A DNA stretch of 64,000 nt from Salvelinus alpinus (lineage: Eukaryota; Chordata; Actinopteri; Salmoniformes; Salmonidae). Made by a program: the position numbers and the translations under genes. Below are positions 2,887-64,000 of this stretch, piece after piece (positions within the stretch are counted from its first letter, which is position 1; the number at the start of each line of letters is the position of its first letter). Below the pieces are notes generated by a model. It made no database searches and was not told the DNA's origin. It saw nothing but the letters and a program-made list of their open reading frames with translations. The stretch is from the NCBI RefSeq assembly GCF_045679555.1, contig NC_092089.1, positions 6,184,679 to 6,248,678 of the forward strand, read 5' to 3'.

Positions 2887-2936
2887 ACATGATACTCTTT
2901 TATAATACATGATACTATGTTGTAATACGTGACACT

Positions 2937-3116
2937 CTGTTGTCTCCAGGAGCGATCGCTGGCATCGTGGACCAACCCATGTTATGATACTATGTTATGA
3001 TCCTCTGTTGTCTCCAGGAGCGATCGCTGGCATCGTGGACCAACCCATGTTATGATACTATGTTATGATCCTCTGTTGTCTCCAGGAGCGATCGCTGGCA
3101 TCGTGGACCAACCCAT
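2937..3116 (+). repeat. vps13b: 68-bp triplication of the exon B 3' splice site and exon start
   Basis: Three tandem copies with a 68-bp period carry the acceptor TTGTCTCCAG followed by the first roughly 30 bases of exon B, beginning GAGCGATCGCTGGCATCG. TCTCCAG starts at 2943, 3011 and 3079. The first two copies break into GTTATGATACTATGTTATG after CAACCCATG. Only the third continues into CAGAACTTCCAGCG and the full exon. The first two copies are therefore decoy acceptors with truncated exon starts. Confidence 0.93.
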
Positions 3117-3262
3117 GCAGAACTTCCAGCGTGGTTCAGAGATGCAGAGTTCAGCAAGCAGCAAGGCCAAAGGGGTCATCTCTGGGGTGGGGAAAGGCAT
3201 CGTGGGGGTCTTTACCAAACCTATAGGGGGCGCCGCAGAGCTGGTCTCTCAGACGGGATACG
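3086..3262 (+). CDS. vps13b: vps13b exon B
   Basis: This 177-nt exon encodes AIAGIVDQPMQNFQ, then SSKAKGVISGVGKGIVGVFT and KPIGGAAELVSQTGYG. This is among the best conserved stretches of VPS13B and of VPS13-family C-termini, where a glycine-rich amphipathic region precedes the PH-like end. The acceptor is the third of three tandem TCTCCAG copies, at 3079-3085, and is the only one leading into the complete exon. The donor is CG|GTGGGT at 3263. The phase is one base in and one base out: TAC G joins GT ATC CTT CAT of the next exon. Confidence 0.95.
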
Positions 3263-35500: not shown

Positions 35501-35550
35501 ACATTTGTATGGACATACTGGTCATCTATGGTCATGTGGTCTAATGGGAT

Positions 35551-37614: not shown

Positions 37615-38093
37615 GTCACGGTGCCGGTGGTGTCACGGTGCCAGTGGTGCCAGTGGTGTCACGGTGCCAGTGGTGTCACGGTGCCAGTGGTGTCACGGTG
37701 CCAGTGGGGTCACGGTGCCAGTGGTGTCACGGTGCCAGTGGTGTCAGTGGTGTCACGGTGCCGGTGGTGTCACGGTGCCAGTGGTGTCACGGTGCCAGTG
37801 GTGCCAGTGGTGTCACGGTGCCAGTGGGGTCACGGTGCCGGTGGTGTCACGGTGCCAGTGGTGTCACGGTGCCAGTGGTACCAGTGGTGTCACGGTGCCA
37901 GTGGTGCCAGTGGTGTCACGGTGCCAGTGGTGTCACGGTGCCGGTGGTGTCACGGTGCCAGTGGTGTCACGGTGCCAGTGGTGCCAGTGGTGTCACGGTG
38001 CCAGTGGGGTCACGGTGCCAGTGGGGTCACGGTGCCAGTGGGGTCACGGTGCCAGTGGGGTCACGGTGCCAGTGGGGTCACGGTGCCAGTGGT
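37615..38093. repeat. 17-bp minisatellite, second copy
   Basis: About 28 units of GGTGCCAGTGGTGTCAC and variants. The variant order differs from the first copy: the GTCAAGG units are missing and several GTGCCGGTGG units are present. Open frames across it are repeat artefacts. Confidence 0.95.
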
Positions 38094-38392
38094 GAACAAC
38101 GTCGAACGAGTCAGATGAATGCTCAGGAGAAATGGTTCATATCCAAAAGCTGTCGACCAAAATGTGGTTGTGGGATTCGTCGCTTTTCAAATGTATTTTA
38201 TTTTCTTCTAGAAAACGTAACACATTACGATGAGATGTTTTTAACATCAAATCGTTTAGTTCTGTGTATTTTGAGTTCATGCCCAATATCATTACCTTGT
38301 TTATTAAATTCTGTTATAACACAGCTTTATGGAATTAAAAACACCGTTTTTGTACTCTAATGCTTTAGATGGTCTACGTCATGTGTCCAACT

Positions 38393-38604
38393 CCATTCCA
38401 CGGAGGTCTGAGTGTCTGAACGGTTTTTCCCTCCTCCTTTTGTACTTGATTGATTAATTAAGGTCACTAATTAGTAAAGAACTCCCCCTCACCTGGTTGG
38501 CTAGGAGTTAATTGCAACAGGTCCAACCATGATGGCTGAATGACCAATTAACTGAGAGGAAGGCCCTGCAGACGCCAGGCCCTCCGTGGACAGAGTTGGA
38601 CCCC
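38393..38604. mobile_element. Palindromic MITE-like element, second copy
   Basis: Copy of 13346-13567 at the same place in the duplicated 3' region, with the same inverted ends GTCCAACTCCATTCCACGGA and CCTCCGTGGACAGAGTTGGA. It was inserted before the two copies separated. Confidence 0.75.
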
Positions 38605-38761
38605 CTCTGGGTCTACCGGGATAATATATTGTATTAATGACATTCTAATAAAATATTGAAGTTGTGATGTCACGTGGTTCCCTTGACCAATAGTACATGC
38701 TCAGGTTATTAAAGTTAGTCGATCTACTATGTATTGTTCAGTGTTGGATAGCCAGCCAATA

Positions 38762-41700
38762 GGAGGGGACATTAGGGCTCAGTATTATCCTGAGTAGGAG
38801 GTGACATTAGGGCTCAGTATTATCCTGACTAGGAGGTGACATTAGGGCTCAGTATTATCCTGACTAGGAGGTGACATTAGGGCTCAGTATTATCCTGACT
38901 AGGAGGTGACATTAGGGCTCAGTATTATCCTGACTAGGAGGTGACATTAGGGCTCAGTATTATCCTGACAAGGCCACAAGGAGGTGACATTAGGGCTCAG
39001 TATTATCCTGACTAGGAGGTGACATTAGGGCTCAGTATTATCCTGACTAGGAGCTGACATTAGGGCTCAGTATTATCCTGACTAGGAGGTGACATTAGGG
39101 CTCAGTATTATCCTGACTAGGAGGTGACATTAGGGCTCAGTATTATCCTGACTAGGAGGTGACATTAGGGCTCAGTATTATCCTGACAAGGCCACAAGGA
39201 GGTGACATTAGGGCTCAGTATTATCCTGACTAGGAGCTGACATTAGGGCTCAGTATTATCCTGACTAGGAGGTGACATTAGGGCTCAGTATTATCCTGAC
39301 AAGGAGGTGACATTAGGGTTCAGTATTATCCTGACTAGGAGCTGACATTAGGGCTCAGTATTATCCTGACTAGGAGGTGACATTAGGGCTCAGTATTATC
39401 CTGACAAGGAGGTGACATTAGGGCTCAGTATTAACCTGACAAGGAGGTGACATTAGGGCTCAGTATTATCCTGACAAGGAGGTGACATTAGGGCTCAGTA
39501 TTATCCTGACAAGGAGGTGACATTAGGGCTCAGTATTATCCTGACAAGGAGGTGACATTAGGGCTCAGTATTATCCTGACTAGGAGGTGACATTAGGGCT
39601 CAGTATTATCCTGACAAGGAGGTGACATTAGGGCTCAGTATTATCCTGACTAGGAGGTGACATTAGGACTCAGTATTATCCTGACTAGGAGGTGACATTA
39701 GGGCTCAGTATTATCCGGACAAAGACACTAGGAGGTGACATTAGTTCTCAGTATTATCCTGACAAGGAGGTGACATTAGGGCTCAGTATTATCCTGACTA
39801 GGAAGTGACATTAGGGCTCAGTATTATCCTGACTAAGAGGTGACATTAGGGCTCAGTATTATCCTGACAAGGAGGTGACATTAGGACTCAGTATTATCCT
39901 GACTAGGAGGTGACATTAGGGATCAGTATTATCCTGACAAAGCCACTAGGAGGTGACATTAGGGCTCAGTATTATCCTGACAAGGAGATGACATTAGGGC
40001 TCAGTATTATCCTGACTAGGAGGTGACATTAGGGCTCAGTATTATCCTGACAAGGAGGTGACATTAGGGCTCAGTATTATCCTGACTAGGAGTTGACATT
40101 AGGGCTCAGTATTATCCTGACTAGGAGGTGACATTAGGGATCAGTATTATCCTGACTAGGAGGTGACATTAGGGCTCAGTATTATCCTGACTAGGAGGTG
40201 ACATTAGGGCTCAGTATTACCCTGACAAAGCCACTAGGAGGTGACATTAGGGCTCAGTATTATCCTGACAAAGCCACTAGGAGGTGACATTAGGGCTCAG
40301 TATTATCCTGACTAGGAGGTGACATTAGGGCTCAGTATTACCCTGACAAAGCCACTAGGAGATGACATTAGGGCTCAGTATTATCCTCACTAGGAGGTGA
40401 CATTAGGGCTCAGTATTATCCTGACTAGGAGGTGACATTAGGGCTCAGTATTATCCTGACTAGGAGCTGACATTAGGGCTCAGTATTATCCTGACTAGGA
40501 GGTGACATTAGGGCTCAGTATTATCCTGACTAGGAGGTGACATTAGGGCTCAGTATTATCCTGACTAGGAGGTGACATTAGGGCTCAGTATTATCCTGAC
40601 AAGGCCACAAGGAGGTGACATTAGGGCTCAGTATTATCCTGACTAGGAGCTGACATTAGGGCTCAGTATTATCCTGACTAGGAGGTGACATTAGGGCTCA
40701 GTATTATCCTGACTAGGAGCTGACATTAGGGCTCAGTATTATCCTGACTAGGAGTTGACATTAGGGCTCAGTATTATCCTGACTAGGAGGTGACATTAGG
40801 GCTCAGTATTATCCTGACTAGGAGGTGACATTAGGGCTCAGTATTATCCTGACAAGGCCACAAGGAGGTGACATTAGGGCTCAGTATTATCCTGACTAGG
40901 AGCTGACATTAGGGCTCAGTATTATCCTGACTAGGAGGTGACATTAGGGCTCAGTATTATCCTGACAAGGAGGTGACATTAGGGTTCAGTATTATCCTGA
41001 CTAGGAGCTGACATTAGGGCTCAGTATTATCCTGACTAGGAGGTGACATTAGGGCTCAGTATTATCCTGACAAGGAGGTGACATTAGGGCTCAGTATTAT
41101 CCTGACAAGGAGGTGACATTAGGGCTCAGTAGTATCCTGACTAGGAGGTGACATTAGGGCTCAGTATTATCCTGACAAGGAGGTGACATTAGGGCTCAGT
41201 ATTATCCTGACTAGGAGGTGACATTAGGACTCAGTATTATCCTGACTAGGAGGTGACATTAGGGCTCAGTATTATCCGGACAAAGACACTAGGAGGTGAC
41301 ATTAGTGCTCAGTATTATCCTGACAAGGAGGTGACATTAGGGCTCAGTATTATCCTGACTAGGAAGTGACATTAGGGCTCAGTATTATCCTGACTAGGAG
41401 GTGACATTAGGGCTCAGTATTATCCTGACAAGGAGGTGACATTAGGACTCAGTATTATCCTGACTAGGAGGTGACATTAGGGATCAGTATTATCCTGACA
41501 AAGCCACTAGGAGGTGACATTAGGGCTCAGTATTATCCTGACAAGGAGATGACATTAGGGCTCAGTTTTATCCTGACTAGGAGGTGACATTAGGGCTCAG
41601 TATTATCCTGACAAGGAGGTGACATTAGGGCTCAGTATTATCCTGACTAGGAGTTGACATTAGGGCTCAGTATTATCCTGACTAGGAGGTGACATTAGGG

Positions 41701-44700
41701 ATCAGTATTATCCTGACTAGGAGGTGACATTAGGGCTCAGTATTATCCTGACTAGGAGGTGACATTAGGGCTCAGTATTACCCTGACAAAGCCACTAGGA
41801 GGTGACATTAGGGCTCAGTATTATCCTGACAAAGCCACTAGGAGGTGACATTAGGGCTCAGTATTATCCTGACTAGGAGGTGACATTAGGGCTCAGTATT
41901 ACCCTGACAAAGCCACTAGGAGATGACATTAGGGCTCAGTATTATCCTCACTAGGAGGTGACATTAGGGCTCAGTATTATCCTGACTAGGAGATGACATT
42001 AGGGCTCAGTATTATCCTGACTAGGAGGTGACATTAGGGCTCAGTATTACCCTGACAAAGCCACTAGGAGATGACATTAGGGCTCAGTATTATCCTCACT
42101 AGGAGGTGACATTAGGGCTCAGTATTATCCTGACTAGGAGATGACATTAGGGCTCAGTATTATCCTGACTAGGAGGTGACATTAGGGCTCAGTATTATCC
42201 TGACTAGGAGGTGACATTAGGGCTCAGTATTATCCTGACAAGGCCACTAGGAGGTGACTTTAGGGCTCAGTATTATCCTGACAAGGATGTGACATTAGTG
42301 CTCAGTATTATCCTGACTAGGAGCTGACATTAGGGCTCAGTATTATCCTGACTAGGAGGTGACATTAGGGCTCAGTATTATCCTGACAAGGAGGTGACAT
42401 TAGGGCTCAGTATTATCCGGACAAAGACACTAGGAGGTGACATTAGTGCTCAGTATTATCCTGACAAGGAGGTGACATTAGGGCTCAGTATTATCCTGAC
42501 AAAGCCACTAGGAGGTGACAGGGCTCAGTATTATCCTGACTAGGAGGTGACATTAGGGCTCAGTATTATCCTGACAAAGCCACTAGGAGGTGACAGTGCT
42601 CAGTATTATCCTGACTAGGAGGTGACATTAGGGCTCAGTATTATCCTGACTAGGAGGTGACATTAGGGCTCAGTATTATCCTCACTAGGAGATGACATTA
42701 GGGCTCAGTATTATCCTGACAAGGAGGTGACATTAGGGCTCAGTATTATCCTGACTAGGAGGTGACATTAGGGCTCAGTATTATCCTGACAAGGAGGTGA
42801 CATTAGGGCTCAGTATTATCCTGACAAGGAGGTGACATTAGGGCTCAGTATTATCCTGACAAGGAGGTGACATTAGGGCTCAGTATTATCCTGACTAGGA
42901 GGTGACATTAGGGCTCAGTATTATCCTGACAAGGAGGTGACATTAGGGCTCAGTATTATCCTGACTAGGAGGTGACATTAGGGCTCAGTATTATCCTGAC
43001 AAGGCCACAAGGAGGTGACATTAGGGCTCAGTATTATCCTGACTAGGAGCTGACATTAGGGCTCAGTATTATCCTGACTAGGAGGTGACATTAGGGCTCA
43101 GTATTATCCTGACTAGGAGCTGACATTAGGGCTCAGTATTATCCTGACTAGGAGGTGACATTAGGGCTCAGTATTATCCTGACTAGGAGGTGACATTAGG
43201 GCTCAGTATTATCCTGACAAGGAGGTGACATTAGGGCTCAGTATTATCCTGACTAGGAGGTGACATTAGGACTCAGTATTATCCTGACTAGGAGGTGACA
43301 TTAGGGCTCAGTATTATCCGGACAAAGACACTAGGAGGTGACATTAGTGCTCAGTATTATCCTGACAAGGAGGTGACATTAGGGCTCAGTATTATCCTGA
43401 CTAGGAAGTGACATTAGGGCTCAGTATTATCCTGACTAGGAGGTGACATTAGGACTCAGTATTATCCTGACTAGGAGGTGACATTAGGGCTCAGTATTAT
43501 CCGGACAAAGACACTAGGAGGTGACATTAGTGCTCAGTATTATCCTGACAAGGAGGTGACATTAGGGCTCAGTATTATCCTGACTAGGAAGTGACATTAG
43601 GGCTCAGTATTATCCTGACTAGGAGGTGACATTAGGGCTCAGTATTATCCTGACAAGGAGGTGACATTAGGACTCAGTATTATCCTGACTAGGAGGTGAC
43701 ATTAGGGATCAGTATTATCCTGACAAAGCCACTAGGAGGTGACATTAGGGCTCAGTATTATCCTGACAAGGAGATGACATTAGGGCTCAGTATTATCCTG
43801 ACTAGGAGGTGACATTAGGGCTCAGTATTATCCTGACAAGGAGGTGACATTAGGGCTCAGTATTATCCTGACTAGGAGTTGACATTAGGGCTCAGTATTA
43901 TCCTGACTAGGAGGTGACATTAGGGATCAGTATTATCCTGACTAGGAGGTGACATTAGGGCTCAGTATTATCCTGACTAGGAGGTGACATTAGGGCTCAG
44001 TATTACCCTGACAAAGCCACTAGGAGATGACATTAGGGCTCAGTATTATCCTCACTAGGAGGTGACATTAGGGCTCAGTATTATCCTGACTAGGAGATGA
44101 CATTAGGGCTCAGTATTATCCTGACTAGGAGGTGACATTAGGGCTCAGTATTATCCTGACTAGGAGGTGACATTAGGGCTCAGTATTATCCTGACAAGGC
44201 CACTAGGAGGTGACTTTAGGGCTCAGTATTATCCTGACAAGGATGTGACATTAGTGCTCAGTATTATCCTGACTAGGAGCTGACATTAGGGCTCAGTATT
44301 ATCCTGACTAGGAGGTGACATTAGGGCTCAGTATTATCCTGACAAGGAGGTGACATTAGGGCTCAGTATTATCCGGACAAAGACACTAGGAGGTGACATT
44401 AGTGCTCAGTATTATCCTGACAAGGAGGTGACATTAGGGCTCAGTATTATCCTGACTAGGAAGTGACAGGGCTCAGTATTATCCTGACTAGGAGGTGACA
44501 TTAGGGCTCAGTATTATCCTGACAAAGCCACTAGGAGGTGACAGTGCTCAGTATTATCCTGACTAGGAGGTGACATTAGGGCTCAGTATTATCCTGACTA
44601 GGAGGTGACATTAGGGCTCAGTATTATCCTGACTTGAGGTGACATTAGGGCTCAGTATTATCCTCACTAGGAGATGACATTAGGGCTCAGTATTATCCTG

Positions 44701-45233
44701 ACAAGGAGGTGACATTAGGGCTCAGTATTATCCTGACTAGGAGGTGACATTAGGGCTCAGTATTATCCTGACAAGGAGGTGACATTAGGGCTCAGTATTA
44801 TCCTGACAAGGAGGTGACATTAGGGCTCAGTATTATCCTGACAAGGAGGTGACATTAGGGCTCAGTATTATCCTGACTAGGAGGTGACATTAGGGCTCAG
44901 TATTATCCTGACAAGGAGGTGACATTAGGGCTCAGTATTATCCTGACAAGGAGGTGACATTAGGGCTCAGTATTATCCTGACAAGGAGGTGACATTAGGG
45001 CTCAGTATTATCCTGACAAGGAGGTGACATTAGGGCTCAGTATTATCCTGACAAGGAGGTGACATTAGGGCTCAGTATTATCCTGACTAGGAGGTGACAT
45101 TAGGGCTCAGTATTATCCTGACAAGGAGGTGACATTAGGGCTCAGTATTATCCTGACAAGGAGGTGACATTAGGGCTCAGTATTATCCTGACAAGGAGGT
45201 GACATTAGTGCTCAGTATTATCCTGACTAGGAG
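38762..45233. repeat. 35-bp satellite, second copy (about 180 units)
   Basis: A 6.5-kb array of AGGAGGTGACATTAGGGCTC + AGTATTATCCTGACT. Frequent variants replace ACTAGG with ACAAGG, or insert about nine bases (AAAGCCACTAGG). A marker variant CCGGACAAAGACACTAGG occurs at 39715, 41276 (1,561 bp apart), about 42418, 43319, 43502 and 44373. It is flanked by repeated patterns, so blocks of tens of units were duplicated. Each unit has one TTAGGG, but the array is not telomeric. Confidence 0.96.
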
Positions 45234-45725: not shown

Positions 45726-45731
45726 TTTATT
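45726..45731 (-). promoter_or_regulatory. Poly(A) signal of the minus-strand gene
   Basis: TTTATT on the plus strand reads AATAAA on the minus strand, in TGAAATAAACGTC. It lies about 740 bases downstream of the predicted stop at 46468 on that strand. This gives the minus gene a plausible 3' UTR of 45.7-46.47 kb. Confidence 0.55.
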
Positions 45732-45924
45732 TCAACATTACAAACAAACAACTTTTCTGAAAAATGTCAACACTGCCGTGTTTGTACTGAGTCTTGCTGT
45801 TGGAAAGTCACGTCAGTATCAGACTTAACGATGAAAACAGATGCACCTTCCCAGAATTCATTTCTCCACGATCGTCTGCAGTCGGGTTTGCTTCAGGCTT
45901 ACCACTCAAACAAGCCCATTTCCT

Positions 45925-46467
45925 GTTCCTGGGGGAGACGATAGAGGTCTGCTGGGCCTGGTGTTGGCTCTGTCCTGGGGGGAGACGTTAGAGGTCCGCT
46001 GGGCCTGGTGTTGGCTCTGTCCTGGGGGAGACGATAGAGGTCTGCTGGGCCTGGCTCTGTCCTGGGGGAGACGATAGAGGTCCGCTGGGCCTGGTGTTGG
46101 CTCTGTCCTGGGGGAGACGATAGAGCTCTGCTGGGCCTGGTGTTGGTGATGTCCTGGGGGAGACGATAGAGCCCCACTGGGCTTGGCTCTGTTCTGGGGG
46201 AGACGATAGAGGTCTGCTGGGCCTGGTGTCGGCTCTGTCCTGGGGGAGACGATAGAGGTCTGCTGGGCCTGGTGTTGGCTCTGTCCTGGAGGAGACGATA
46301 GAGGTCTGCTGGGCCTGGTGTTGGCTCTGTCCTGGGGGAGACGATAGAGCTCTGCTGGGCCTGGTGTTAGCTCTGTCCTGGGGGAGACGATAGAGGTCCG
46401 CTGGGCCTGGTGTTGGCTCTGTCCTGGGGGAGACGATAGAGCTCTGCTGGGCCTGGTGTCGGCTCTG
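45925..46467. repeat. 46-bp minisatellite in the minus gene's 3' UTR
   Basis: About 12 units contain GGGGGAGACGATAGAGGTCT and GCTGGGCCTGGTGTTGGCTC; some units are shortened. The array abuts the predicted stop codon. It is unrelated in sequence to the TCTAGTGAC 46-bp satellite. On the minus strand each unit has CTATCGTCTCCCCCAG, which resembles a splice acceptor. Open frames in both directions are repeat artefacts. Confidence 0.93.
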
Positions 46468-46511
46468 TCAGGAGTGTCTGCTGCCCTTCAGACTGTGGGC
46501 AGAGGACGAGT
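46468..46511 (-). CDS. Last coding exon of an unidentified minus-strand gene
   Basis: On the minus strand, the acceptor CTCCCCTGTCCTCCAG is followed by ACTCGTCCTCTGCC. After joining to the G left by the exon at 47681-47780 it reads D-SSSAHSLKGSRHS and stops at TGA (plus-strand 46468-46470). The phase match, a good acceptor and a downstream AATAAA at 45726-45731 support a real terminal exon. The serine-rich tail gives no family clue to me. The gene is tail to tail with vps13b. Human VPS13B has COX6C in that position, but these residues do not resemble COX6C. Confidence 0.55.
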
Positions 46512-47043: not shown

Positions 47044-47668
47044 ACAGCCACAAGGTCTGAGGTCATTACTACAGCCACAAGGTCTGAGATCATCATTACT
47101 ACAGCCACAAGGTCTGAGATCATTACTACAGCCACAAGGTCTGAGATCATTACTACAGCCACAAGGTCTGAGATCATTACTACAGCCACAAGGTCTGAGA
47201 TCATTACTACAGCCACACGGTCTGAGATCATTACTACAGCCACACGGTCTGAGATCATTACTACAGCCACAAGGTCTGAGATCATTACTACAGCCACACG
47301 GTCTGAGATCATTACTACAGCCACAAGGTCTGAGATCAATACTACAGCCACAAGGTCTGAGATCATCATTACTACAGCCACAAGGTCTGAGATCCTTACT
47401 ACAGCCACAAGGTCTGAGATCATTAATACAGCCACAAGGTCTGAGATCATTACTACAGCCACAAGGTCTGAGATCATCATTACTACAGCCACAAGGTCTG
47501 AGATCATTACTACAGCCACAAGGTCTGAGATCCTTACTACAGCCACAAGGTCTGAGATCCTTACTACAGCCACAAGGTCTGAGATCATTAATACAGCCAC
47601 AAGGTCTGAGATCATTACTACAGCCACAAGGTCTGAGATCATTACTACAGCCACAAGGTCTGAGATCT
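47044..47668. repeat. 27-bp minisatellite next to the minus gene's donor site
   Basis: About 23 units of ACAGCCACAAGGTCTGAGAT plus CATTACT, with some three-base insertions (CATCATTACT). It starts about 12 bases into the intron after the donor at 47680 (minus strand). A period of 27 keeps frames open in both directions (TTATRSEI forward, ISDLVAVVM reverse). Confidence 0.95.
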
Positions 47669-47680
47669 GTAGACTCCTAC

Positions 47681-47780
47681 CTGTCCCAGTGGAGGAGGTG
47701 AGTTCCAGCTGGGCCTGTCTCCTCAGCAGCACCTCCTCTCTCTCCAGGGCGACCATGTATTTAGAGTAGGACCAAGACAA
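47681..47780 (-). CDS. Penultimate coding exon of the unidentified minus-strand gene
   Basis: On the minus strand this 100-nt exon reads LSWSYSKYMVALEREE then VLLRRQAQLELTSSTGT and ends GGGACAG before the donor GTAGGAG. The predicted peptide is charged and helix-prone, possibly coiled coil, and continues into the exon at 46468-46511. The likely acceptor is CTATAACAG just beyond 47780, with TTCTAAC about 20 bases upstream of the AG as a branch-point candidate. The first bases of the exon (TTGTCTTGGTCCTACTCTAA) are nearly identical to the satellite unit that fills the upstream intron. I do not recognise the family. The exon could be longer or differ at its 5' edge because the acceptor lies inside the repeat. 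Confidence 0.55.
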
Positions 47781-50700
47781 CTGTTATAGAGACATGTAGT
47801 TAGAATAGGACCAAGACAACTGTTATAGAGACATGTAGTTAGAATAGGACCAAGACAACTGTTATAGAAGAGACATGTAGTTAGAATAGGACCAAGACAA
47901 CTGTTATAGAGACATGTAGTTAGAATAGGACCAAGACAACTGTTATAGAGACATGTAGTTAGAATAGGACCAAGACAATTGTTATAGAAGAGACATGTAG
48001 TTAGAATAGGACCAAGACAACTGTTATAGAAGAGACATGTAGTTAGAATAGGACCAAGACAACTGTTATAGAGACATGTAGTTAGAATAGGACCAAGACA
48101 ACTGTTATAGAGACATGTAGTTAGATTAGGACCAAGACAACTGTTATAGAGACATGTAGTTAGAATAGGACCAAGACAACTGTTATAGAGACATGTAGTT
48201 AGAATAGGACCAAGACAACTGTTATAGAGACATGTAGTTAGATTAGGACCAAGACAACTGTTATAGAGACATGCAGTTAGAATAGGACCAAGACAACTGT
48301 TATAGAGACATGTAGTTAGAATAGGACCAAGACAACTGTTATAGAAGAGACATGTAGTTAGATTAGGACCAAGACAACTGTTATAGAAGAGACATGTAGT
48401 TAGAATAGGACCCAGACAACTGTTATAGAAGAGACATGTAGTTAGAATAGGACCAAGACAACTGTTATAGAAGAGACATGTAGTTAGAATAGGACCAAGA
48501 CAACTGTTATAGAAGAGACATGTAGTTAGATTAGGACCAAGACAACTGTTATAGAAGAGACATGTAGTTAGAATAGGACCAAGACAACTGTTATAGAGAC
48601 ATGTAGTTAGAATAGGACCCAGACAACTGTTATAGAGACATGTAGTTAGAATAGGACCAAGACAACTGTTATAGAGACATGTAGTTAGAATAGGACCAAG
48701 ACAACTGTTATAGAGACATGTAGTTAGAATAGGACCCAGACAACTGTTATAGAGACATGTAGTTAGAATAGGACCAAGACAACTGTTATAGAGACATGTA
48801 GTTAGAATAGGACCAAGACAACTGATATAGAGACATGTAGTTAGAATAGTACCAAGACAACTGTTATAGAGACATGTATTTAGAATAGGACCAAGACAAC
48901 TGTTATAGAGACATGTAGTTAGAATAGGACCAAGACAACTGTTATAGAGACATGTAGTTAGAATAGGACCAAGACAACTGTTATAGAGACATGTAGTTAG
49001 AATAGGACCAAGACAACTGTTATAGAGACATGTAGTTAGAATAGTACCAAGACAACTGTTATAGAGACATGTAGTTAGAATAGGACCAAGACAACTGCTA
49101 TAGAGACATGTAGTTAGAATAGGACCAAGACAACTGTTATAGAGACATGTAGTTAGAATAGGACCAAGACAACTGTTATAGAAGAGACATGTAGTTAGAA
49201 TAGGACCAAGACAACTGTTATAGAGACATGTAGTTAGAATAGGACCAAGACAACTGTTATAGAGACATGTAGTTAGAATAGGACCAAGACAATTGTTATA
49301 GAAGAGACATGTAGTTAGAATAGGACCAAGACAACTGTTATAGAAGAGACATGTAGTTAGAATAGGACCAAGACAACTGTTATAGAGACATGTAGTTAGA
49401 ATAGGACCAAGACAACTGTTATAGAGACATGTAGTTAGAATAGGACCAAGACAACTGTTATAGAGACATGTAGTTAGATTAGGACCAAGACAACTGTTAT
49501 AGAGACATGTAGTTAGAATAGGACCAAGACAACTGTTATAGAGACATGTAGTTAGATTAGGACCAAGACAACTGTTATAGAGACATGTAGTTAGAATAGG
49601 ACCAATACAACTGTTATAGAGACATGTAGTTAGAATAGGACCAAGACAACTGTTATAGAAGAGACATGTAGTTAGATTAGGACCAAGACAACTGTTATAG
49701 AAGAGACATGTAGTTAGAATAGGACCCAGACAACTGTTATAGAAGAGACATGTAGTTAGAATAGGACCAAGACAACTGTTATAGAAGAGACATGTAGTTA
49801 GAATAGGACCAAGACAACTGTTATAGAAGAGACATGTAGTTAGAATAGGACCCAGACAACTGTTATAGAGACATGTAGTTAGAATAGGACCAAGACAACT
49901 GTTATAGAGACATGTAGTTAGAATAGGACCAAGACAACTGTTATAGAGACATGTAGTTAGAATAGTACCAAGACAACTGTTATAGAGACATGTAGTTAGA
50001 ATAGGACCAAGACAACTGCTATAGAGACATGTAGTTAGAATAGGACCAAGACAACTGTTATAGAGACATGTAGTTAGAATAGGACCAAGACAACTGTTAT
50101 AGAAGAGACATGTAGTTAGAATAGGACCAAGACAACTGTTATAGAGATATGTAGTTAGAATAGGACCAAGACAACTGTTATAGAGACATGTAGTTAGAAT
50201 AGGACCAAGACAATTGTTATAGAAGAGACATGTAGTTAGAATAGGACCAAGACAACTGTTATAGAAGAGACATGTAGTTAGAATAGGACCAAGACAACTG
50301 TTATAGAGACATGTAGTTAGAATAGGACCAAGACAACTGTTATAGAGACATGTAGTTAGAAGAGGACCAAGACAACTGTTATAGAGACATGTAGTTAGAT
50401 TAGGACCAAGACAACTGTTATAGAGACATGTAGTTAGAATAGGACCAAGACAACTGTTATAGAGACATGTAGTTAGATTAGGACCAAGACAACTGTTATA
50501 GAGACATGTAGTTAGAATAGGACCAATACAACTGTTATAGAGACATGTAGTTAGAATAGGACCAAGACAACTGTTATAGAAGAGACATGTAGTTAGATTA
50601 GGACCAAGACAACTGTTATAGAAGAGACATGTAGTTAGAATAGGACCCAGACAACTGTTATAGAAGAGACATGTAGTTAGAATAGGACCAAGACAACTGT

Positions 50701-53700
50701 TATAGAAGAGACATGTAGTTAGAATAGGACCAAGACAACTGTTATAGAAGAGACATGTAGTTAGAATAGGACCCAGACAACTGTTATAGAGACATGTAGT
50801 TAGAATAGGACCAAGACAACTGTTATAGAGACATGTAGTTAGAATAGGACCAAGACAACTGTTATAGAGACATGTAGTTAGAATAGGACCCAGACAACTG
50901 TTATAGAGACATGTAGTTAGAATAGGACCAAGACAACTGTTATAGAGACATGTAGTTAGAATAGGACCAAGACAACTGTTATAGAGACATGTAGTTAGAA
51001 TAGTACCAAGACAACTGTTATAGAGACATGTATTTAGAATAGGACCAAGACAACTGTTATAGAGACATGTAGTTAGAATAGGACCAAGACAACTGTTATA
51101 GAGACATGTAGTTAGAATAGGACCAAGACAACTGTTATAGAGACATGTAGTTAGAATAGGACCAAGACAACTGTTATAGAGACATGTAGTTAGAATAGTA
51201 CCAAGACAACTGTTATAGAGACATGTAGTTAGAATAGGACCAAGACAACTGTTATAGAGACATGTAGTTAGAATAGGACCAAGACAACTGTTATAGAGAC
51301 ATGTAGTTAGATTAGGACCAAGACAACTGTTATAGAGACATGTAGTTAGAATAGGACCAAGACAACTGTTATAGAGACATGTAGTTAGATTAGGACCAAG
51401 ACAACTGTTATAGAGACATGTAGTTAGAATAGGACCAAGACAACTGTTATAGAGACATGTAGTTAGAATAGGACCAAGACAACTGTTATAGAAGAGACAT
51501 GTAGTTAGATTAGGACCAAGACAACTGTTATAGAAGAGACATGTAGTTAGAATAGGACCCAGACAACTGTTATAGAAGAGACATGTAGTTAGAATAGGAC
51601 CAAGACAACTGTTATAGAAGAGACATGTAGTTAGAATAGGACCAAGACAACTGTTATAGAAGAGACATGTAGTTAGAATAGGACCAAGACAACTGTTATA
51701 GAAGAGACATGTAGTTAGATTAGGACCAAGACAACTGTTATAGAAGAGACATGTAGTTAGAATAGGACCAAGACAACTGTTATAGAGACATGTAGTTAGA
51801 ATAGGACCAAGACAACTGTTATAGAGACATGTAGTTAGAATAGGACCCAGACAACTGTTATAGAGACATGTAGTTAGAATAGGACCAAGACAACTGGTAT
51901 AGAGACATGTAGTTAGAATAGGACCAAGACAACTGTTATAGAGACATGTAGTTAGAATAGGACCCAGACAACTGTTATAGAGACATGTAGTTAGAATAGG
52001 ACCAAGACAACTGTTATAGAGACATGTAGTTAGATTAGGACCAAGACAACTGTTATAGAGACATGTAGTTAGAATAGGACCAAGACAATTGTTATAGAAG
52101 AGACATGTAGTTAGAATAGGACCAAGACAACTGTTATAGAAGAGACATGTAGTTAGAATAGGACCAAGACAACTGTTATAGAGACATGTAGTTAGAATAG
52201 GACCAAGACAACTGTTATAGAGACATGTAGTTAGAAGAGGACCAAGACAACTGTTATAGAGACATGTAGTTAGATTAGGACCAAGACAACTGTTATAGAG
52301 ACATGTAGTTAGAATAGGACCAAGACAACTGTTATAGAGACATGTAGTTAGATTAGGACCAAGACAACTGTTATAGAGACATGTAGTTAGAATAGGACCA
52401 ATACAACTGTTATAGAGACATGTAGTTAGAATAGGACCAAGACAACTGTTATAGAAGAGACATGTAGTTAGATTAGGACCAAGACAACTGTTATAGAAGA
52501 GACATGTAGTTAGAATAGGACCCAGACAACTGTTATAGAAGAGACATGTAGTTAGAATAGGACCAAGACAACTGTTATAGAAGAGACATGTAGTTAGAAT
52601 AGGACCAAGACAACTGTTATAGAAGAGACATGTAGTTAGAATAGGACCCAGACAACTGTTATAGAGACATGTAGTTAGAATAGGACCAAGACAACTGTTA
52701 TAGAGACATGTAGTTAGAATAGGACCAAGACAACTGTTATAGAGACATGTAGTTAGAATAGGACCCAGACAACTGTTATAGAGACATGTAGTTAGAATAG
52801 GACCAAGACAACTGTTATAGAGACATGTAGTTAGAATAGGACCAAGACAACTGTTATAGAGACATGTAGTTAGAATAGTACCAAGACAACTGTTATAGAG
52901 ACATGTATTTAGAATAGGACCAAGACAACTGTTATAGAGACATGTAGTTAGAATAGGACCAAGACAACTGTTATAGAGACATGTAGTTAGAATAGGACCA
53001 AGACAACTGTTATAGAGACATGTAGTTAGAATAGGACCAAGACAACTGTTATAGAGACATGTAGTTAGAATAGTACCAAGACAACTGTTATAGAGACATG
53101 TAGTTAGAATAGGACCAAGACAACTGTTATAGAGACATGTAGTTAGAATAGGACCAAGACAACTGTTATAGAGACATGTAGTTAGATTAGGACCAAGACA
53201 ACTGTTATAGAGACATGTAGTTAGAATAGGACCAAGACAACTGTTATAGAGACATGTAGTTAGATTAGGACCAAGACAACTGTTATAGAGACATGTAGTT
53301 AGAATAGGACCAAGACAACTGTTATAGAGACATGTAGTTAGAATAGGACCAAGACAACTGTTATAGAAGAGACATGTAGTTAGATTAGGACCAAGACAAC
53401 TGTTATAGAAGAGACATGTAGTTAGAATAGGACCCAGACAACTGTTATAGAAGAGACATGTAGTTAGAATAGGACCAAGACAACTGTTATAGAAGAGACA
53501 TGTAGTTAGAATAGGACCAAGACAACTGTTATAGAAGAGACATGTAGTTAGAATAGGACCAAGACAACTGTTATAGAAGAGACATGTAGTTAGATTAGGA
53601 CCAAGACAACTGTTATAGAAGAGACATGTAGTTAGAATAGGACCAAGACAACTGTTATAGAGACATGTAGTTAGAATAGGACCAAGACAACTGTTATAGA

Positions 53701-56700
53701 GACATGTAGTTAGAATAGGACCCAGACAACTGTTATAGAGACATGTAGTTAGAATAGGACCAAGACAACTGGTATAGAGACATGTAGTTAGAATAGGACC
53801 AAGACAACTGTTATAGAGACATGTAGTTAGAATAGGACCCAGACAACTGTTATAGAGACATGTAGTTAGAATAGGACCAAGACAACTGTTATAGAGACAT
53901 GTAGTTAGATTAGGACCAAGACAACTGTTATAGAGACATGTAGTTAGAATAGGACCAAGACAACTGTTATAGAAGAGACATGTAGTTAGATTAGGACCAA
54001 GACAACTGTTATAGAGACATGTAGTTAGAATAGGACCAAGACAACTGTTATAGAGACATGTAGTTAGAATAGGACCAAGACAACTGTTATAGAAGAGACA
54101 TGTAGTTAGATTAGGACCAAGACAACTGTTATAGAAGAGACATGTAGTTAGAATAGGACCCAGACAACTGTTATAGAAGAGACATGTAGTTAGAATAGGA
54201 CCAAGACAACTGTTATAGAAGAGACATGTAGTTAGAATAGGACCAAGACAACTGTTATAGAAGAGACATGTAGTTAGATTAGGACCAAGACAACTGTTAT
54301 AGAAGAGACATGTAGTTAGAATAGGACCAAGACAACTGTTATAGAGACATGTAGTTAGAATAGGACCAAGACAACTGTTATAGAGACATGTAGTTAGAAT
54401 AGGACCAAGACAACTGTTATAGAGACATGTAGTTAGAATAGGACCAAGACAACTGTTATAGAGACATGTAGTTAGAATAGGACCAAGACAACTGTTATAG
54501 AGACATGTAGTTAGAATAGGACCAAGACAACTGTTATAGAGACATGTAGTTAGATTGGGACCAAGACAACTGTTATAGAAGAGACATGTAGTTAGAATAG
54601 GACCAAGACAACTGTTATAGAAGAGACATGTAGTTAGAATAGGACCAAGACAACTGTTATAGAGACATGTAGTTAGAATAGGACCAAGACAACTGTTATA
54701 GAGACATGTAGTTAGAATAGGACCAAGACAACTGTTATAGAGACATGTAGTTAGAATAGGACCAAGACAACTGTTATAGATGAGACATGTAGTTAGAATA
54801 GGACCAAGACAACTGTTATAGAAGAGACATGTAGTTAGATTAGGACCAAGACAACTGTTATAGAAGAGACATGTAGTTAGAATAGGACCAAGACAACTGT
54901 TATAGAAGAGACATGTAGTTAGAATAGGACCAAGACAACTGTTATAGAAGAGACATGTAGTTAGAATAGGACCAAGACAACTGTTATAGAAGAGACATGT
55001 AGTTAGAATAGGACCAAGACAACTGTTATAGAGACATGTAGTTAGAATAGGACCAAGACAACTGTTATAGAGACATGTAGTTAGATTAGGACCAAGACAA
55101 CTGTTATAGAGACATGTAGTTAGAATAGGACCAAGACAACTGTTATAGAGACATGTAGTTAGAATAGGACCAAGACAACTGTTATAGAGACATGTAGTTA
55201 GAATAGGACCAAGACAACTGTTATAGAGACATGTAGTTAGATTAGGACCAAGACAACTGTTATAGAGACATGTAGTTAGAATAGGACCAAGACAACTGTT
55301 ATAGAGACATGTAGTTAGATTAGGACCAAGACAACTGTTATAGAGACATGTAGTTAGAATAGGACCAAGACAACTGTTATAGAGACATGTAGTTAGATTA
55401 GGACCAAGACAACTGTTATAGAAGAGACATGTAGTTAGATTAGGACCAAGACAACTGTTATAGAAGAGACATGTAGTTAGAATAGGACCCAGACAACTGT
55501 TATAGAAGAGACATGTAGTTAGAATAGGACCAAGACAACTGTTATAGAAGAGACATGTAGTTAGAATAGGACCAAGACAACTGTTATAGAAGAGACATGT
55601 AGTTAGAATAGGACCAAGACAACTGTTATAGAAGAGACATGTAGTTAGATTAGGACCAAGACAACTGTTATAGAAGAGACATGTAGTTAGAATAGGACCA
55701 AGACAACTGTTATAGAGACATGTAGTTAGAATAGGACCAAGACAACTGTTATAGAGACATGTAGTTAGAATAGGACCCAGACAACTGTTATAGAGACATG
55801 TAGTTAGAATAGGACCAAGACAACTGTTATAGAGACATGTAGTTAGAATAGGACCAAGACAACTGTTATAGAGACATGTAGTTAGAATAGGACCCAGACA
55901 ACTGTTATAGAGACATGTAGTTAGAATAGGACCAATACAACTGTTATAGAAGAGACATGTAGTTAGAATAGGACCAAGACAACTGTTATAGAGACATGTA
56001 GTTAGAATAGGACCAAGACAACTGTTATAGAGACATGTAGTTAGATTAGGACCAAGACAACTGTTATAGAGACATGTAGTTAGAATAGGACCAAGACAAC
56101 TGTTATAGAGACATGTAGTTAGAATAGGACCAAGACAACTGTTATAGAAGAGACATGTAGTTAGATTAGGACCAAGACAACTGTTATAGAAGAGACATGT
56201 AGTTAGAATAGGACCCAGACAACTGTTATAGAAGAGACATGTAGTTAGAATAGGACCAAGACAACTGTTATAGAAGAGACATGTAGTTAGAATAGGACCA
56301 AGACAACTGTTATAGAAGAGACATGTAGTTAGATTAGGACCAAGACAACTGTTATAGAAGAGACATGTAGTTAGAATAGGACCAAGACAACTGTTATAGA
56401 GACATGTAGTTAGAATAGGACCAAGACAACTGTTATAGAGACATGTAGTTAGATTAGGACCAAGACAACTGTTATAGAGACATGTAGTTAGAATAGGACC
56501 AAGACAACTGTTATAGAAGAGACATGTAGTTAGAATAGGACCAAGACAACTGTTATAGAGACATGTAGTTAGAATAGGACCAAGACAACTGTTATAGAGA
56601 CATGTAGTTAGATTAGGACCAAGACAACTGTTATAGAGACATGTAGTTAGAATAGGACCAAGACAACTGTTATAGAGACATGTAGTTAGAATAGGACCAA

Positions 56701-59700
56701 GACAACTGTTATAGAAGAGACATGTAGTTAGATTAGGACCAAGACAACTGTTATAGAAGAGACATGTAGTTAGAATAGGACCAAGACAACTGTTATAGAA
56801 GAGACATGTAGTTAGATTAGGACCAAGACAACTGTTATAGAAGAGACATGTAGTTAGAATAGGACCAAGACAACTGTTATAGAGACATGTAGTTAGAATA
56901 GGACCAAGACAACTGTTATAGAGACATGTAGTTAGAATAGGACCAAGACAACTGTTATAGAGACATGTAGTTAGATTAGGACCAAGACAACTGTTATAGA
57001 GACATGTAGTTAGAATAGGACCAAGACAACTGTTATAGAGACATGTAGTTAGAATAGGACCAAGACAACTGTTATAGAGACATGTAGTTAGAATAGGACC
57101 AAGACAACTGTTATAGAGACATGTAGTTAGAATAGGACCAAGACAACTGTTATAGAGACATGTAGTTAGATTAGGACCAAGACAACTGTTATAGAGACAT
57201 GTAGTTAGAATAGGACCAAGACAACTGTTATAGAGACATGTAGTTAGATTAGGACCAAGACAACTGTTATAGAGACATGTAGTTAGAATAGGACCAAGAC
57301 AACTGTTATAGAGACATGTAGTTAGATTAGGACCAAGACAACTGTTATAGAAGAGACATGTAGTTAGATTAGGACCAAGACAACTGTTATAGAAGAGACA
57401 TGTAGTTAGAATAGGACCCAGACAACTGTTATAGAAGAGACATGTAGTTAGAATAGGACCAAGACAACTGTTATAGAAGAGACATGTAGTTAGAATAGGA
57501 CCAAGACAACTGTTATAGAAGAGACATGTAGTTAGAATAGGACCAAGACAACTGTTATAGAAGAGACATGTAGTTAGATTAGGACCAAGACAACTGTTAT
57601 AGAAGAGACATGTAGTTAGAATAGGACCAAGACAACTGTTATAGAGACATGTAGTTAGAATAGGACCAAGACAACTGTTATAGAGACATGTAGTTAGAAT
57701 AGGACCCAGACAACTGTTATAGAGACATGTAGTTAGAATAAGACCAAGACAACTGTTATAGAGACATGTAGTTAGAATAGGACCAAGACAACTGTTATAG
57801 AAGAGACATGTAGTTAGAATAGGACCAAGACAACTGTTATAGAGACATGTAGTTAGAATAGGACCAAGACAACTGTTATAGAGACATGTAGTTAGATTAG
57901 GACCAAGACAACTGTTATAGAGACATGTAGTTAGAATAGGACCAAGACAACTGTTATAGAGACATGTAGTTAGAATAGGACCAAGACAACTGTTATAGAA
58001 GAGACATGTAGTTAGATTAGGACCAAGACAACTGTTATAGAAGAGACATGTAGTTAGAATAGGACCAAGACAACTGTTATAGAAGAGACATGTAGTTAGA
58101 GTAGGACCAAGACAACTGTTATAGAAGAGACATGTAGTTAGAATAGGACCAAGACAACTGTTATAGAAGAGACATGTAGTTAGAATAGGACCAAGACAAC
58201 TGTTATAGAGACATGTAGTTAGAATAGGACCAAGACAACTGTTATAGAGACATGTAGTTAGATTAGGACCAAGACAACTGTTATAGAGACATGTAGTTAG
58301 AATAGGACCAAGACAACTGTTATAGAGACATGTAGTTAGAATAGGACCAAGACAACTGTTATAGAGACATGTAGTTAGAATAGGACCAAGACAACTGTTA
58401 TAGAGACATGTAGTTAGAATAGGACCAAGACAACTGTTATAGAGACATGTAGTTAGATTAGGACCAAGACAACTGTTATAGAGACATGTAGTTAGAATAG
58501 GACCAAGACAACTGTTATAGAGACATGTAGTTAGATTAGGACCAAGACAACTGTTATAGAGACATGTAGTTAGAATAGGACCAAGACAACTGTTATAGAG
58601 ACATGTAGTTAGAATAGGACCAAGACAACTGTTATAGAAGAGACATGTAGTTAGATTAGGACCAAGACAACTGTTATAGAAGAGACATGTAGTTAGAATA
58701 GGACCCAGACAACTGTTATAGAAGAGACATGTAGTTAGAATAGGACCAAGACAACTGATATAGAAGAGACATGTAGTTAGAATAGGACCAAGACAACTGT
58801 TATAGAAGAGACATGTAGTTAGAATAGGACCAAGACAACTGTTATAGAAGAGACATGTAGTTAGATTAGGACCAAGACAACTGTTATAGAAGAGACATGT
58901 AGTTAGAATAGGACCAAGACAACTGTTATAGAGACATGTAGTTAGAATAGGACCAAGACAACTGTTATAGAGACATGTAGTTAGAATAGGACCCAGACAA
59001 CTGTTATAGAGACATGTAGTTAGAATAAGACCAAGACAACTGTTATAGAGACATGTAGTTAGAATAGGACCAAGACAACTGTTATAGAGACATGTAGTTA
59101 GAATAGGACCCAGACAACTGTTATAGAGACATGTAGTTAGAATAGGACCAAGACAACTGTTATAGAAGAGACATGTAGTTAGAATAGGACCAAGACAACT
59201 GTTATAGAAGAGACATGTAGTTAGAATAGGACCAAGACAACTGTTATAGAGACATGTAGTTAGATTAGGACCAAGACAACTGTTAGAGACATGTAGTTAG
59301 AATAGGACCAAGACAACTGTTATAGAGACATGTAGTTAGAATAGGACCAAGACAACTGATATAGAGACATGTAGTTAGAATAGTACCAAGACAACTGTTA
59401 TAGAGACATGTAGTTAGAATAGGACCAAGACAACTGTTATAGAGACATGTAGTTAGAATAGGACCAAGACAACTGTTATAGAGACATGTAGTTAGAATAG
59501 TACCAAGACAACTGTTATAGAGACATGTAGTTAGAATAGGACCAAGACAACTGTTATAGAGACATGTAGTTAGAATAGGACCAAGACAACTGTTATAGAA
59601 GAGACATGTAGTTAGAATAGGACCAAGACAACTGTTATAGAGACATGTAGTTAGAATAGGACCAAGACAACTGTTATAGAGACATGTAGTTAGAATAGGA

Positions 59701-62700
59701 CCAAGACAACTGTTATAGAGACATGTAGTTAGAATAGGACCAAGACAACTGTTATAGAGACATGTAGTTAGATTAGGACCAAGACAACTGTTATAGAAGA
59801 GACATGTAGTTAGAATAGGACCAAGACAACTGTTATAGAAGAGACATGTAGTTAGAATAGGACCAAGACAACTGTTATAGAGACATTTAGTTAGAATAGG
59901 ACCAAGACAACTGTTATAGAGACATGTAGTTAGAATAGGACCAAGACAACTGTTATAGAGACATGTAGTTAGAATAGGACCAAGACAACTGTTATAGATG
60001 AGACATGTAGTTAGAATAGGACCAAGACAACTGTTATAGAGACATGTAGTTAGAATAGGACCAAGACAACTGTTATAGATGAGACATGTAGTTAGAATAG
60101 GACCAAGACAACTGTTATAGAAGAGACATGTAGTTAGATTAGGACCAAGACAACTGTTATAGAAGAGACATGTAGTTAGAATAGGACCAAGACAACTGTT
60201 ATAGAGACATGTAGTTAGAATAGGACCAAGACAACTGTTATAGAAGAGACATGTAGTTAGATTAGGACCAAGACAACTGTTATAGAAGAGACATGTAGTT
60301 AGAATAGGACCCAGACAACTGTTATAGAAGAGACATGTAGTTAGAATAGGACCAAGACAACTGATATAGAAGAAACATGTAGTTAGAATAGGACCAAGAC
60401 AACTGTTATAGAAGAGACATGTAGTTAGATTAGGACCAAGACAACTGTTATAGAAGAGACATGTAGTTAGAATAGGACCAAGACAACTGTTATAGAGACA
60501 TGTAGTTAGAATAGGACCAAGACAACTGTTATAGAGACATGTAGTTAGAATAGGACCCAGACAACTGTTATAGAGACATGTAGTTAGAATAGGTCCAAGA
60601 CAACTGTTATAGAGACATGTAGTTAGAATAGGACCAAGACAACTGTTATAGAGACATGTAGTTAGATTAGGACCAAGACAACTGTTATAGAAGAGACATG
60701 TAGTTAGAATAGGACCAAGACAACTGTTATAGAAGAGACATGTAGTTAGAATAGGACCAAGACAACTGTTATAGAGACATTTAGTTAGAATAGGACCAAG
60801 ACAACTGTTATAGAGACATGTAGTTAGAATAGGACCAAGACAACTGTTATAGAGACATGTAGTTAGAATAGGACCAAGACAACTGTTATAGATGAGACAT
60901 GTAGTTAGAATAGGACCAAGACAACTGTTATAGAGACATGTAGTTAGAATAGGACCAAGACAACTGTTATAGATGAGACATGTAGTTAGAATAGGACCAA
61001 GACAACTGTTATAGAAGAGACATGTAGTTAGATTAGGACCAAGACAACTGTTATAGAAGAGACATGTAGTTAGAATAGGACCAAGACAACTGTTATAGAG
61101 ACATGTAGTTAGAATAGGACCAAGACAACTGTTATAGAGACATGTAGTTAGAATAGGACCAAGACAACTGTTATAGAGACATGTAGTTAGAATAGGACCA
61201 AGACAACTGTTATAGATGAGACATGTAGTTAGAATAGGACCAAGACAACTGTTATAGAGACATGTAGTTAGAATAGGACCAAGACAACTGTTATAGATGA
61301 GACATGTAGTTAGAATAGGACCAAGACAACTGTTATAGAAGAGACATGTAGTTAGATTAGGACCAAGACAACTGTTATAGAAGAGACATGTAGTTAGAAT
61401 AGGACCAAGACAACTGTTATAGAGACATGTAGTTAGAATAGGACCAAGACAACTGTTATAGAAGAGACATGTAGTTAGATTAGGACCAAGACAACTGTTA
61501 TAGAAGAGACATGTAGTTAGAATAGGACCCAGACAACTGTTATAGAAGAGACATGTAGTTAGAATAGGACCAAGACAACTGATATAGAAGAAACATGTAG
61601 TTAGAATAGGACCAAGACAACTGTTATAGAAGAGACATGTAGTTAGATTAGGACCAAGACAACTGTTATAGAAGAGACATGTAGTTAGAATAGGACCAAG
61701 ACAACTGTTATAGAGACATGTAGTTAGAATAGGACCAAGACAACTGTTATAGAGACATGTAGTTAGAATAGGACCCAGACAACTGTTATAGAGACATGTA
61801 GTTAGAATAGGTCCAAGACAACTGTTATAGAGACATGTAGTTAGAATAGGACCAAGACAACTGTTATAGAGACATGTAGTTAGATTAGGACCAAGACAAC
61901 TGTTATAGAAGAGACATGTAGTTAGAATAGGACCAAGACAACTGTTATAGAAGAGACATGTAGTTAGAATAGGACCAAGACAACTGTTATAGAGACATTT
62001 AGTTAGAATAGGACCAAGACAACTGTTATAGAGACATGTAGTTAGAATAGGACCAAGACAACTGTTATAGAGACATGTAGTTAGAATAGGACCAAGACAA
62101 CTGTTATAGATGAGACATGTAGTTAGAATAGGACCAAGACAACTGTTATAGAGACATGTAGTTAGAATAGGACCAAGACAACTGTTATAGATGAGACATG
62201 TAGTTAGAATAGGACCAAGACAACTGTTATAGAAGAGACATGTAGTTAGATTAGGACCAAGACAACTGTTATAGAAGAGACATGTAGTTAGAATAGGACC
62301 AAGACAACTGTTATAGAGACATGTAGTTAGAATAGGACCAAGACAACTGTTATAGAAGAGACATGTAGTTAGATTAGGACCAAGACAACTGTTATAGAAG
62401 AGACATGTAGTTAGAATAGGACCCAGACAACTGTTATAGAAGAGACATGTAGTTAGAATAGGACCAAGACAACTGATATAGAAGAGACATGTAGTTAGAA
62501 TAGGACCAAGACAACTGTTATAGAAGAGACATGTAGTTAGATTAGGACCAAGACAACTGTTATAGAAGAGACATGTAGTTAGAATAGGACCAAGACAACT
62601 GTTATAGAGACATGTAGTTAGAATAGGACCAAGACAACTGTTATAGAGACATGTAGTTAGAATAGGACCCAGACAACTGTTATAGAGACATGTAGTTAGA

Positions 62701-64000
62701 ATAGGTCCAAGACAACTGTTATAGAGACATGTAGTTAGAATAGGACCAAGACAACTGTTATAGAGACATGTAGTTAGAATAGGACCCAGACAACTGTTAT
62801 AGAGACATGTAGTTAGAATAGGACCAAGACAACTGTTATAGAAGAGACATGTAGTTAGAATAGGACCAAGACAACTGTTATAGAAGAGACATGTAGTTAG
62901 AATAGGACCAAGACAACTGTTATAGAGACATGTAGTTAGATTAGGACCAAGACAACTGTTAGAGACATGTAGTTAGAATAGGACCAAGACAACTGTTATA
63001 GAGACATGTAGTTAGAATAGGACCAAGACAACTGATATAGAGACATGTAGTTAGAATAGTACCAAGACAACTGTTATAGAGACATGTAGTTAGAATAGGA
63101 CCAAGACAACTGTTATAGAGACATGTAGTTAGAATAGGACCAAGACAACTGTTATAGAGACATGTAGTTAGAATAGTACCAAGACAACTGTTATAGAGAC
63201 ATGTAGTTAGAATAGGACCAAGACAACTGTTATAGAGACATGTAGTTAGAATAGGACCAAGACAACTGTTATAGAAGAGACATGTAGTTAGAATAGGACC
63301 AAGACAACTGTTATAGAGACATGTAGTTAGAATAGGACCAAGACAACTGTTATAGAGACATGTAGTTAGAATAGGACCAAGACAACTGTTATAGAGACAT
63401 GTAGTTAGAATAGGACCAAGACAACTGTTATAGAGACATGTAGTTAGATTAGGACCAAGACAACTGTTATAGAAGAGACATGTAGTTAGAATAGGACCAA
63501 GACAACTGTTATAGAAGAGACATGTAGTTAGACAGTAGGACTAAGACAACTGTTATAGAGACATGTAGTTAGAATAGGACCAAGACAACTGTTATAGAGA
63601 CATGTAGTTAGAATAGGACCAAGACAACTGTTATAGAGACATGTAGTTAGAATAGGACCAAGACAACTGTTATAGAGACATGTAGTTAGAATAGGACCAA
63701 GACAACTGTTATAGAGACATGTAGTTAGAATAGGACCAAGACAACTGTTATAGATGAGACATGTAGTTAGAATAGGACCAAGACAACTGTTATAGAAGAG
63801 ACATGTAGTTAGATTAGGACCAAGACAACTGTTATAGAAGAGACATGTAGTTAGAATAGGACCAAGACAACTGTTATAGAGACATGTAGTTAGAATAGGA
63901 CCAAGACAACTGTTATAGAAGAGACATGTAGTTAGATTAGGACCAAGACAACTGTTATAGAAGAGACATGTAGTTAGAATAGGACCAAGACAACTGTTAT
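47781..64000 (-). repeat. 39/42-bp satellite made of splice-acceptor-like units
   Basis: About 400 tandem units run to the right end of the window. On the plus strand a unit contains ATGTAGTTAGAATAGGACCA and AGACAACTGTTATAGAGAC; the 42-bp form has AGAAGAGAC or AGATGAGAC. Variants GATTAGG, ACCCAGAC, AGTACC and AGGTCC act as markers. Some recur at fixed distances: AGGTCC at 60591 and 61809, AAACATG at 60373 and 61591, and AGACATTTAG at 60775 and 61993, all 1,218 bp apart; GTTAGAG at 59282 and 62958 (3,676 bp). Read on the minus strand, each unit is TTCTAAC, about 19 bases, AACAG, then the first bases of the exon at 47681-47780. Confidence 0.96.

Follow-up and report, generated by a model that had tools for sequence, protein, structure and literature searches.

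Minisatellites can supply splice sites, as in the human interferon-induced gene G1P3/IFI6, where a 12-bp minisatellite provides several splice donors. In amphioxus, minisatellite-like tandem copies of exon-intron boundaries have been described as mirages in Adh3, BflGb6, BflGb9 and troponin C, and similar boundary repeats occur in PGBD5 (PMC3087553, PMC3902484). The term comes from Canestro 2002, as given in PMC3087553, and the amphioxus data suggest that regular splicing is undisturbed by mirages. In humans, the VNTR in intron 18 of ABCA7 ranges from about 12 to about 427 units, with the largest allele at 10,678 bp, and in longer versions the following exon is skipped more often and expression is lower (PMC5954066). 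A minisatellite of Caenorhabditis elegans has also been linked to alternative splicing, although not via boundary copying (PMC4039745).

The window examined here, the whole 64,000-nucleotide stretch of Salvelinus alpinus DNA, contains a repeat of this kind on its minus strand. A tandem minisatellite-like array abuts a real boundary, that of a predicted penultimate RGS22 exon, and ends 27 nt inside the exon; its unit combines the end of the intron (12 or 15 nt) with 27 nt of exon. We consider it probable that this is an acceptor mirage of more than 400 units, in which the true acceptor has been kept and the decoys are mostly ignored. The coordinates of the main features are collected in Table 1.

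Table 1. Features of the RGS22 acceptor array and its surroundings, in window coordinates
Feature	Position	Strand	Description	Basis
Satellite	47781..64000	-	403 units of 39/42 bp in the RGS22 intron preceding the predicted penultimate exon	TRF and unit count
Predicted penultimate RGS22 coding exon	47681..47780	-	100 nt, reads LSWSYSKYMVALEREEVLLRRQAQLELTSSTGT	phmmer match and splice sites
Putative seed	47754..47780	-	exon nt 1-27, 25/27 identical to unit consensus	TRF and comparison
Purine-rich, enhancer-like run	47732..47745	-	GGAGAGAGAGGAGG, within the exon	motif scan
27-bp minisatellite	47044..47667	-	starts 14 nt past the exon's donor, donor excluded	TRF
Predicted last RGS22 exon	45731..46511	-	acceptor CCTCCAG/ACTCG, stop TGA 46470-46468, AATAAA 45731	
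Second, young boundary repeat	2935..3117	+	68-bp unit, acceptor CTCTGTTGTCTCCAG plus 32 nt of exon edge	TRF
VPS13-family exon	3086..3262	+	5' edge seeded the 68-bp repeat	VPS13 match, repeat comparison

The exon lies between CTATAACAG on its 5' side and GTAGGA on its 3' side, and it has a single open frame. When its 33-aa translation was compared with PDB chains using phmmer, the only chain matched at E ≤10 was the RGS22 chain 9fqr_Ha (residues 1198-1223 of 1257; E 0.0082 for the sequence and 0.072 for the aligned stretch), a modest match. The alignment comprises 26 residues without gaps, from SWSYSKYM through QLEL, and crosses the end of the repeated part; a Pfam search with the exon found no family. 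The predicted last exon, defined solely by splice signals, frame and AATAAA, begins at 46511 after CCCTGTCCTCCAG with an in-frame junction; its 3' end was taken from the first AATAAA, and a second one lies at 45561. Joining both exons extended the match to 9fqr_Ha to residues 1198-1230 (E 0.011), but the predicted terminal peptide brought no real gain in homology score (19.3 versus 19.2 bits). The upstream exons of the gene lie outside the 64-kb window. Most likely, then, 47681-47780 is the penultimate exon of RGS22, a cilium protein that in bovine sperm is a radial-spoke protein (PMC11779644), and its treatment as an exon in a preliminary description of this DNA looks sound given the gapless match over the end of the repeats. 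The predicted 3' UTR holds an array of its own, with a 46-bp unit (45927-46469), which starts at the predicted stop codon and whose units contain the acceptor-like CTCCCCCAG.

On the plus strand, two pieces between 1922 and 3262 match VPS13A (E 6.3e-07) and VPS13C (E 1.3e-06), in each case in the C-terminal part of the protein. In the query, made by joining four pieces, the matches span residues 13-134, which correspond to the first two; Pfam found no family with the four pieces. Gene order suggests that this neighbor is VPS13B, with the exact order and strands of the human VPS13B and RGS22 neighbors taken as our assumption. The name was chosen because both genes are located in human 8q22.2 (PMC7954304). 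Together, the modest RGS22 match and the VPS13-family neighbor indicate that the boundary of the array belongs to a real gene.

Read on the minus strand, the array has 403 unit starts, the first at 63993 and the last at 47819 (counted across 47781-64000), a minimum, since it reaches the end of the window and continues past it. TRF reports a single array at 47754-64000 with period 39, 404.9 copies and 95% matches, the low end of which lies 27 bases inside the exon. Most of the 402 spacings between unit starts are 39 nt (n=247) or 42 nt (n=152), and the rest are 37 nt (n=2) or 83 nt (n=1, an irregular pair); the 42-bp form has three additional bases within its pyrimidine part. The most frequent unit, TTGTCTTGGTCCTATTCTAACTACATGTCTCTATAACAG, accounts for 161 of the 403, including the one adjoining the exon. 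The consensus differs from the exon start at two of 27 positions, 15 and 21, and an AG is retained ahead of 399 unit starts, the four losses all following one unit type. The preliminary description had seen a chain of about 400 copies of an acceptor and exon edge nearly identical to the exon start, and both points are borne out by these counts. It had also placed a branch-like TTCTAAC 19 bases before the AG; there are 327 copies of TTCTAAC and 72 of ATCTAAC, and the distance from the branch-like A to the G of the AG is 19 nt in 244 units and 22 nt in 153 (two further distances of 3 nt are false matches within two 37-bp units). The assertion that each unit carries an in-frame stop was slightly too strong, as this holds for 392 of the 403 units and fails for the rest. 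Over a window of 23 nt (20 intron and 3 exon bases), 232 of the 402 testable decoy sites are the same as the true acceptor, 135 represent the common 42-bp form and 35 contain variants. Within the 39-bp class, 13 of the 39 columns are variable. No further copies of the unit were found below 47740 in the window, allowing up to 7 errors, and its exact 23-base pattern was found in neither viral_contigs nor genome_contigs, collections of viral, bacterial and archaeal DNA with little bearing on fishes.

It seems likely that the exon edge is older than the array and that the acceptor and exon edge seeded it, as the preliminary description had proposed, because the RGS22 alignment continues past the end of the repeats with no gap. 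The exon has CTAAAT (the Lys of YSKY) where the units have CTAACT (Asn), and since the RGS22 chain shares the Lys with the exon, the state of the exon would be the ancestral one. The process could have started with a duplication of 39 nt, comprising 12 nt of the intron end and 27 nt of exon. In the founder of the array, CTAAA became CTAAC, which would have provided every unit with a branch-point-like sequence 19 or 22 nt ahead of an AG. Exon-like alleles at positions 15 and 21 show no clustering near the exon, being found in 4 of the 403 units, located 28, 82, 129 and 258 units away. Enlargement could have proceeded blockwise, with tens of units copied or exchanged at a time. The order of unit types is nonperiodic overall, but a string of 48 types recurs 47 units on and another of 30 types 30 units on. 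Such block repeats are the expected trace of unequal exchange or large-block copying and point to recent growth; coming from one sequence, they suggest length instability between alleles. We also considered whether the decoy splice signals are under constraint. With variable columns counted by hand, the 39-bp units vary at 12 of 27 exon-derived versus 1 of 12 intron-derived columns (Fisher p 0.034), but the 42-bp units vary at 2 of 27 versus 4 of 15, and the idea was dropped because the signs are inconsistent. In itself, the array is probably either neutral or slightly deleterious.

Judged by their sequence, the decoys equal the true acceptor locally, and given that 232 of 402 have an identical 23-nt acceptor window, local signals appear insufficient to single out the true site. 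The statement that the spliceosome would face hundreds of equivalent acceptors is thus right as to local identity but probably overstates the competition, considering that donor motifs are absent from the array (none of the eight searched was found there, although weak GT dinucleotides are present). Therefore, unless a weak GT were used, an exon starting at a decoy must extend to the true donor, which gives sizes of 139, 178, 220, 259, 298 nt and so on (139-499 nt for the ten nearest). The first five of these are ordinary by usual exon sizes, and perhaps 5 to 10 decoys would be real competitors. Of nine purine motifs, seven occur in the 100-nt exon and none in the 16,220 nt of array, which also lacks any purine run of 8 or more, although the absence of purine motifs and donors from the array amounts effectively to one observation on one repeated unit and not to 403. 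The true acceptor may be kept in use by two features that it alone has, a purine-rich run in its exon and a 5' splice site at a distance of 100 nt; we infer that exon definition, dependent on these putative purine-rich enhancers, picks the last acceptor and that the decoys would mostly be ignored. The true acceptor itself probably depends on a satellite-derived branch point, since the last unit occupies the place where the branch region of the intron would be expected.

The nearest decoy reads LSWSYSNYMSL and then a stop, which ends at nt 36, 103 nt before the end of the exon. NMD is the usual outcome for a stop located that far before an exon end, and use of this decoy would then produce an extended exon and loss of the mRNA. 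The stop derives from the intron's own end, CTATAACAG, and stays in frame along the array because both unit lengths, 39 and 42, are divisible by three. Recursive splicing was considered as well and rejected: the AG of the unit is followed by TTG instead of GT, so the units are no ratchet sites.

Against decoys that are mostly ignored, it could be argued that the nearest units are used appreciably and that RGS22 output is lowered in a length-dependent manner via the stop-bearing extension, NMD or exon skipping. The 232 of 402 sites that are locally identical to the true acceptor, the in-frame stops in 392 of 403 units and the ordinary exon sizes produced by the five nearest units (139-298 nt) would all fit such a scenario, and in ABCA7 the length of the donor-side VNTR increases skipping of exon 19 and one retained unit, i.e., use of a neighboring donor copy, appears among the isoforms (PMC5954066). 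However, that isoform is independent of VNTR length and rare, about 2% (PMC5954066), amphioxus mirages are reported to have no effect on regular splicing (PMC3087553), and here the purine run and the donor adjoin the true site only. Appreciable use of decoys thus seems unlikely, albeit a serious candidate, and considering the effect of ABCA7 length on both skipping and expression, "ignored decoys" may be too mild a description. A more speculative role for the array is that of a splice-factor sink, with at least 400 complete branch-point/AG modules in the transcript of every RGS22 allele loading SF1, U2AF and U2 snRNP without a donor. We regard it as improbable; if true, removal of the intron would be slower and RGS22 output, and with it cilium or sperm function, would be tied to array length.

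Two other explanations concern the array as such. A preexisting satellite could have supplied the 5' edge of the exon by exonization, and the shared 27 nt would appear identical under both directions of copying. However, the shared SWSYSKYM aligns without gaps to TWCYSKYI of the RGS22 chain, and if this chain is mammalian, as we take it to be, the stretch predates the split from fishes, which makes this origin hardly credible. The array, or its length, might instead be an assembly artifact, an idea favored by the gap of 100 N at 13901-14000 and by the near-identical second copy of a neighboring stretch. That gap, however, is the sole run of N in the window, and the variation at 13 of 39 columns of the 39-bp units and their overall nonperiodic order make an artifact very improbable, although the exact length of the array is still uncertain.

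Arrays cover about 55,339 of the 63,900 known bases of the window (TRF rows merged by hand). Out of eight predicted splice sites tested, two are inside an array (3086 and 47780), four are at 8, 14, 17 and 42 nt from one, and two at 129 and 145 nt. With six of the eight lying inside an array or no farther than 42 nt from one, nearness to splice sites alone means little here; nearness leaves the shared exon sequence unexplained. Just ahead of a predicted VPS13-family exon there are pyrimidine-rich arrays of 31/44-bp units (35551-35898 and 10468-11075), which represent amplified sequence resembling a polypyrimidine tract without an AG. The one with 44-bp units, in front of the exon at 35906, was examined as a boundary repeat and discarded, since it is pyrimidine-rich, lacks an AG and ends 8 nt short of the acceptor.

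Both pyrimidine-rich arrays lie within a stretch present twice in direct order (8979-13900 and about 34064-38939) next to the 100-N gap, with two predicted exons that were assigned to the VPS13-family gene and lie outside the span of the VPS13 match. Five compared pieces of the copies have identities of 245/246, 249/251, 657/665, 145/153 and 68/70, and the doubling reflects a recent tandem duplication or else the joining of two haplotypes during assembly. The satellites of the two copies are the same but differ greatly in length: the 46-bp array has about 30 units at 8979-10396 and 432 at 15606-35499, and the 35-bp array has about 5 units at 13721-13900, where it ends at the gap, and 179 at 38760-45233. 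Directly after the N gap, there is a Tc1/Sleeping Beauty-like element (14001-15604) with 198-bp inverted ends that are 99% identical and transposase domains HTH_SB and DDE_3.

The VPS13-family gene contains a second boundary repeat, whose AGs end at 2949, 3017 and 3085, giving three acceptors; its decoy reads GAIAGIVDQPML and then a stop. Hence, a boundary repeat with three acceptors and one with 400 are found in one window, on opposite strands. The three-copy case suggests that boundary amplification happens repeatedly and that its beginnings can be observed. The RGS22 locus would be a natural experiment on how the spliceosome settles on a single 3' splice site where local signals leave the choice open, and the array would directly test the reach of exon definition and of exonic enhancers. 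It also suggests one route to huge introns, the amplification of an intron's own end.

Boundary repeats are, as a kind, already known. The preliminary description mentioned neither this nor the second repeat in the window. Among the literature matches listed, from a search that left subscription papers largely outside, none was a vertebrate acceptor-side array of hundreds of units. In amphioxus BflGb6, the 3' end of an intron and the 5' part of an exon were copied as here, but in 3 or 6 units of 150-160 bp (PMC3087553), compared with at least 403 units of 39/42 bp. The units of amphioxus Adh3 measure 10-72 bp. The units described here carry a branch-like CTAAC each and belong to a vertebrate gene. 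In amphioxus mirages, the AG or GT is retained in many, although not all, copies (PMC3087553, PMC3902484). The human ABCA7 VNTR is likewise a minisatellite containing a real splice site; however, it is on the donor side, with a 25-bp unit that begins with the GT of exon 18 (PMC5954066), whereas the array at RGS22 is on the acceptor side and its unit holds exon sequence and a branch-like site. Variable internal tandem repeats of human segmentally duplicated genes are mostly minisatellites, some at exon-intron boundaries, and can alter splicing; those altering gene structure have on average a 30-bp unit, 4 copies and a length of 160 bp (PMC2812944), so that the array described here is about 100 times longer. 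The Drosophila genes kl-3 and kl-5 encode axonemal dyneins. Their gigantic introns contain satellite DNA within transcribed introns, as here, but in the form of megabases of simple repeats instead of kilobases of a gene's own acceptor (PMC6508621). Compared with the known small versions of boundary repeats, the RGS22 case is unusually large and complete, and what is new in it is the size together with a complete acceptor module in each unit, on the acceptor side of the exon.
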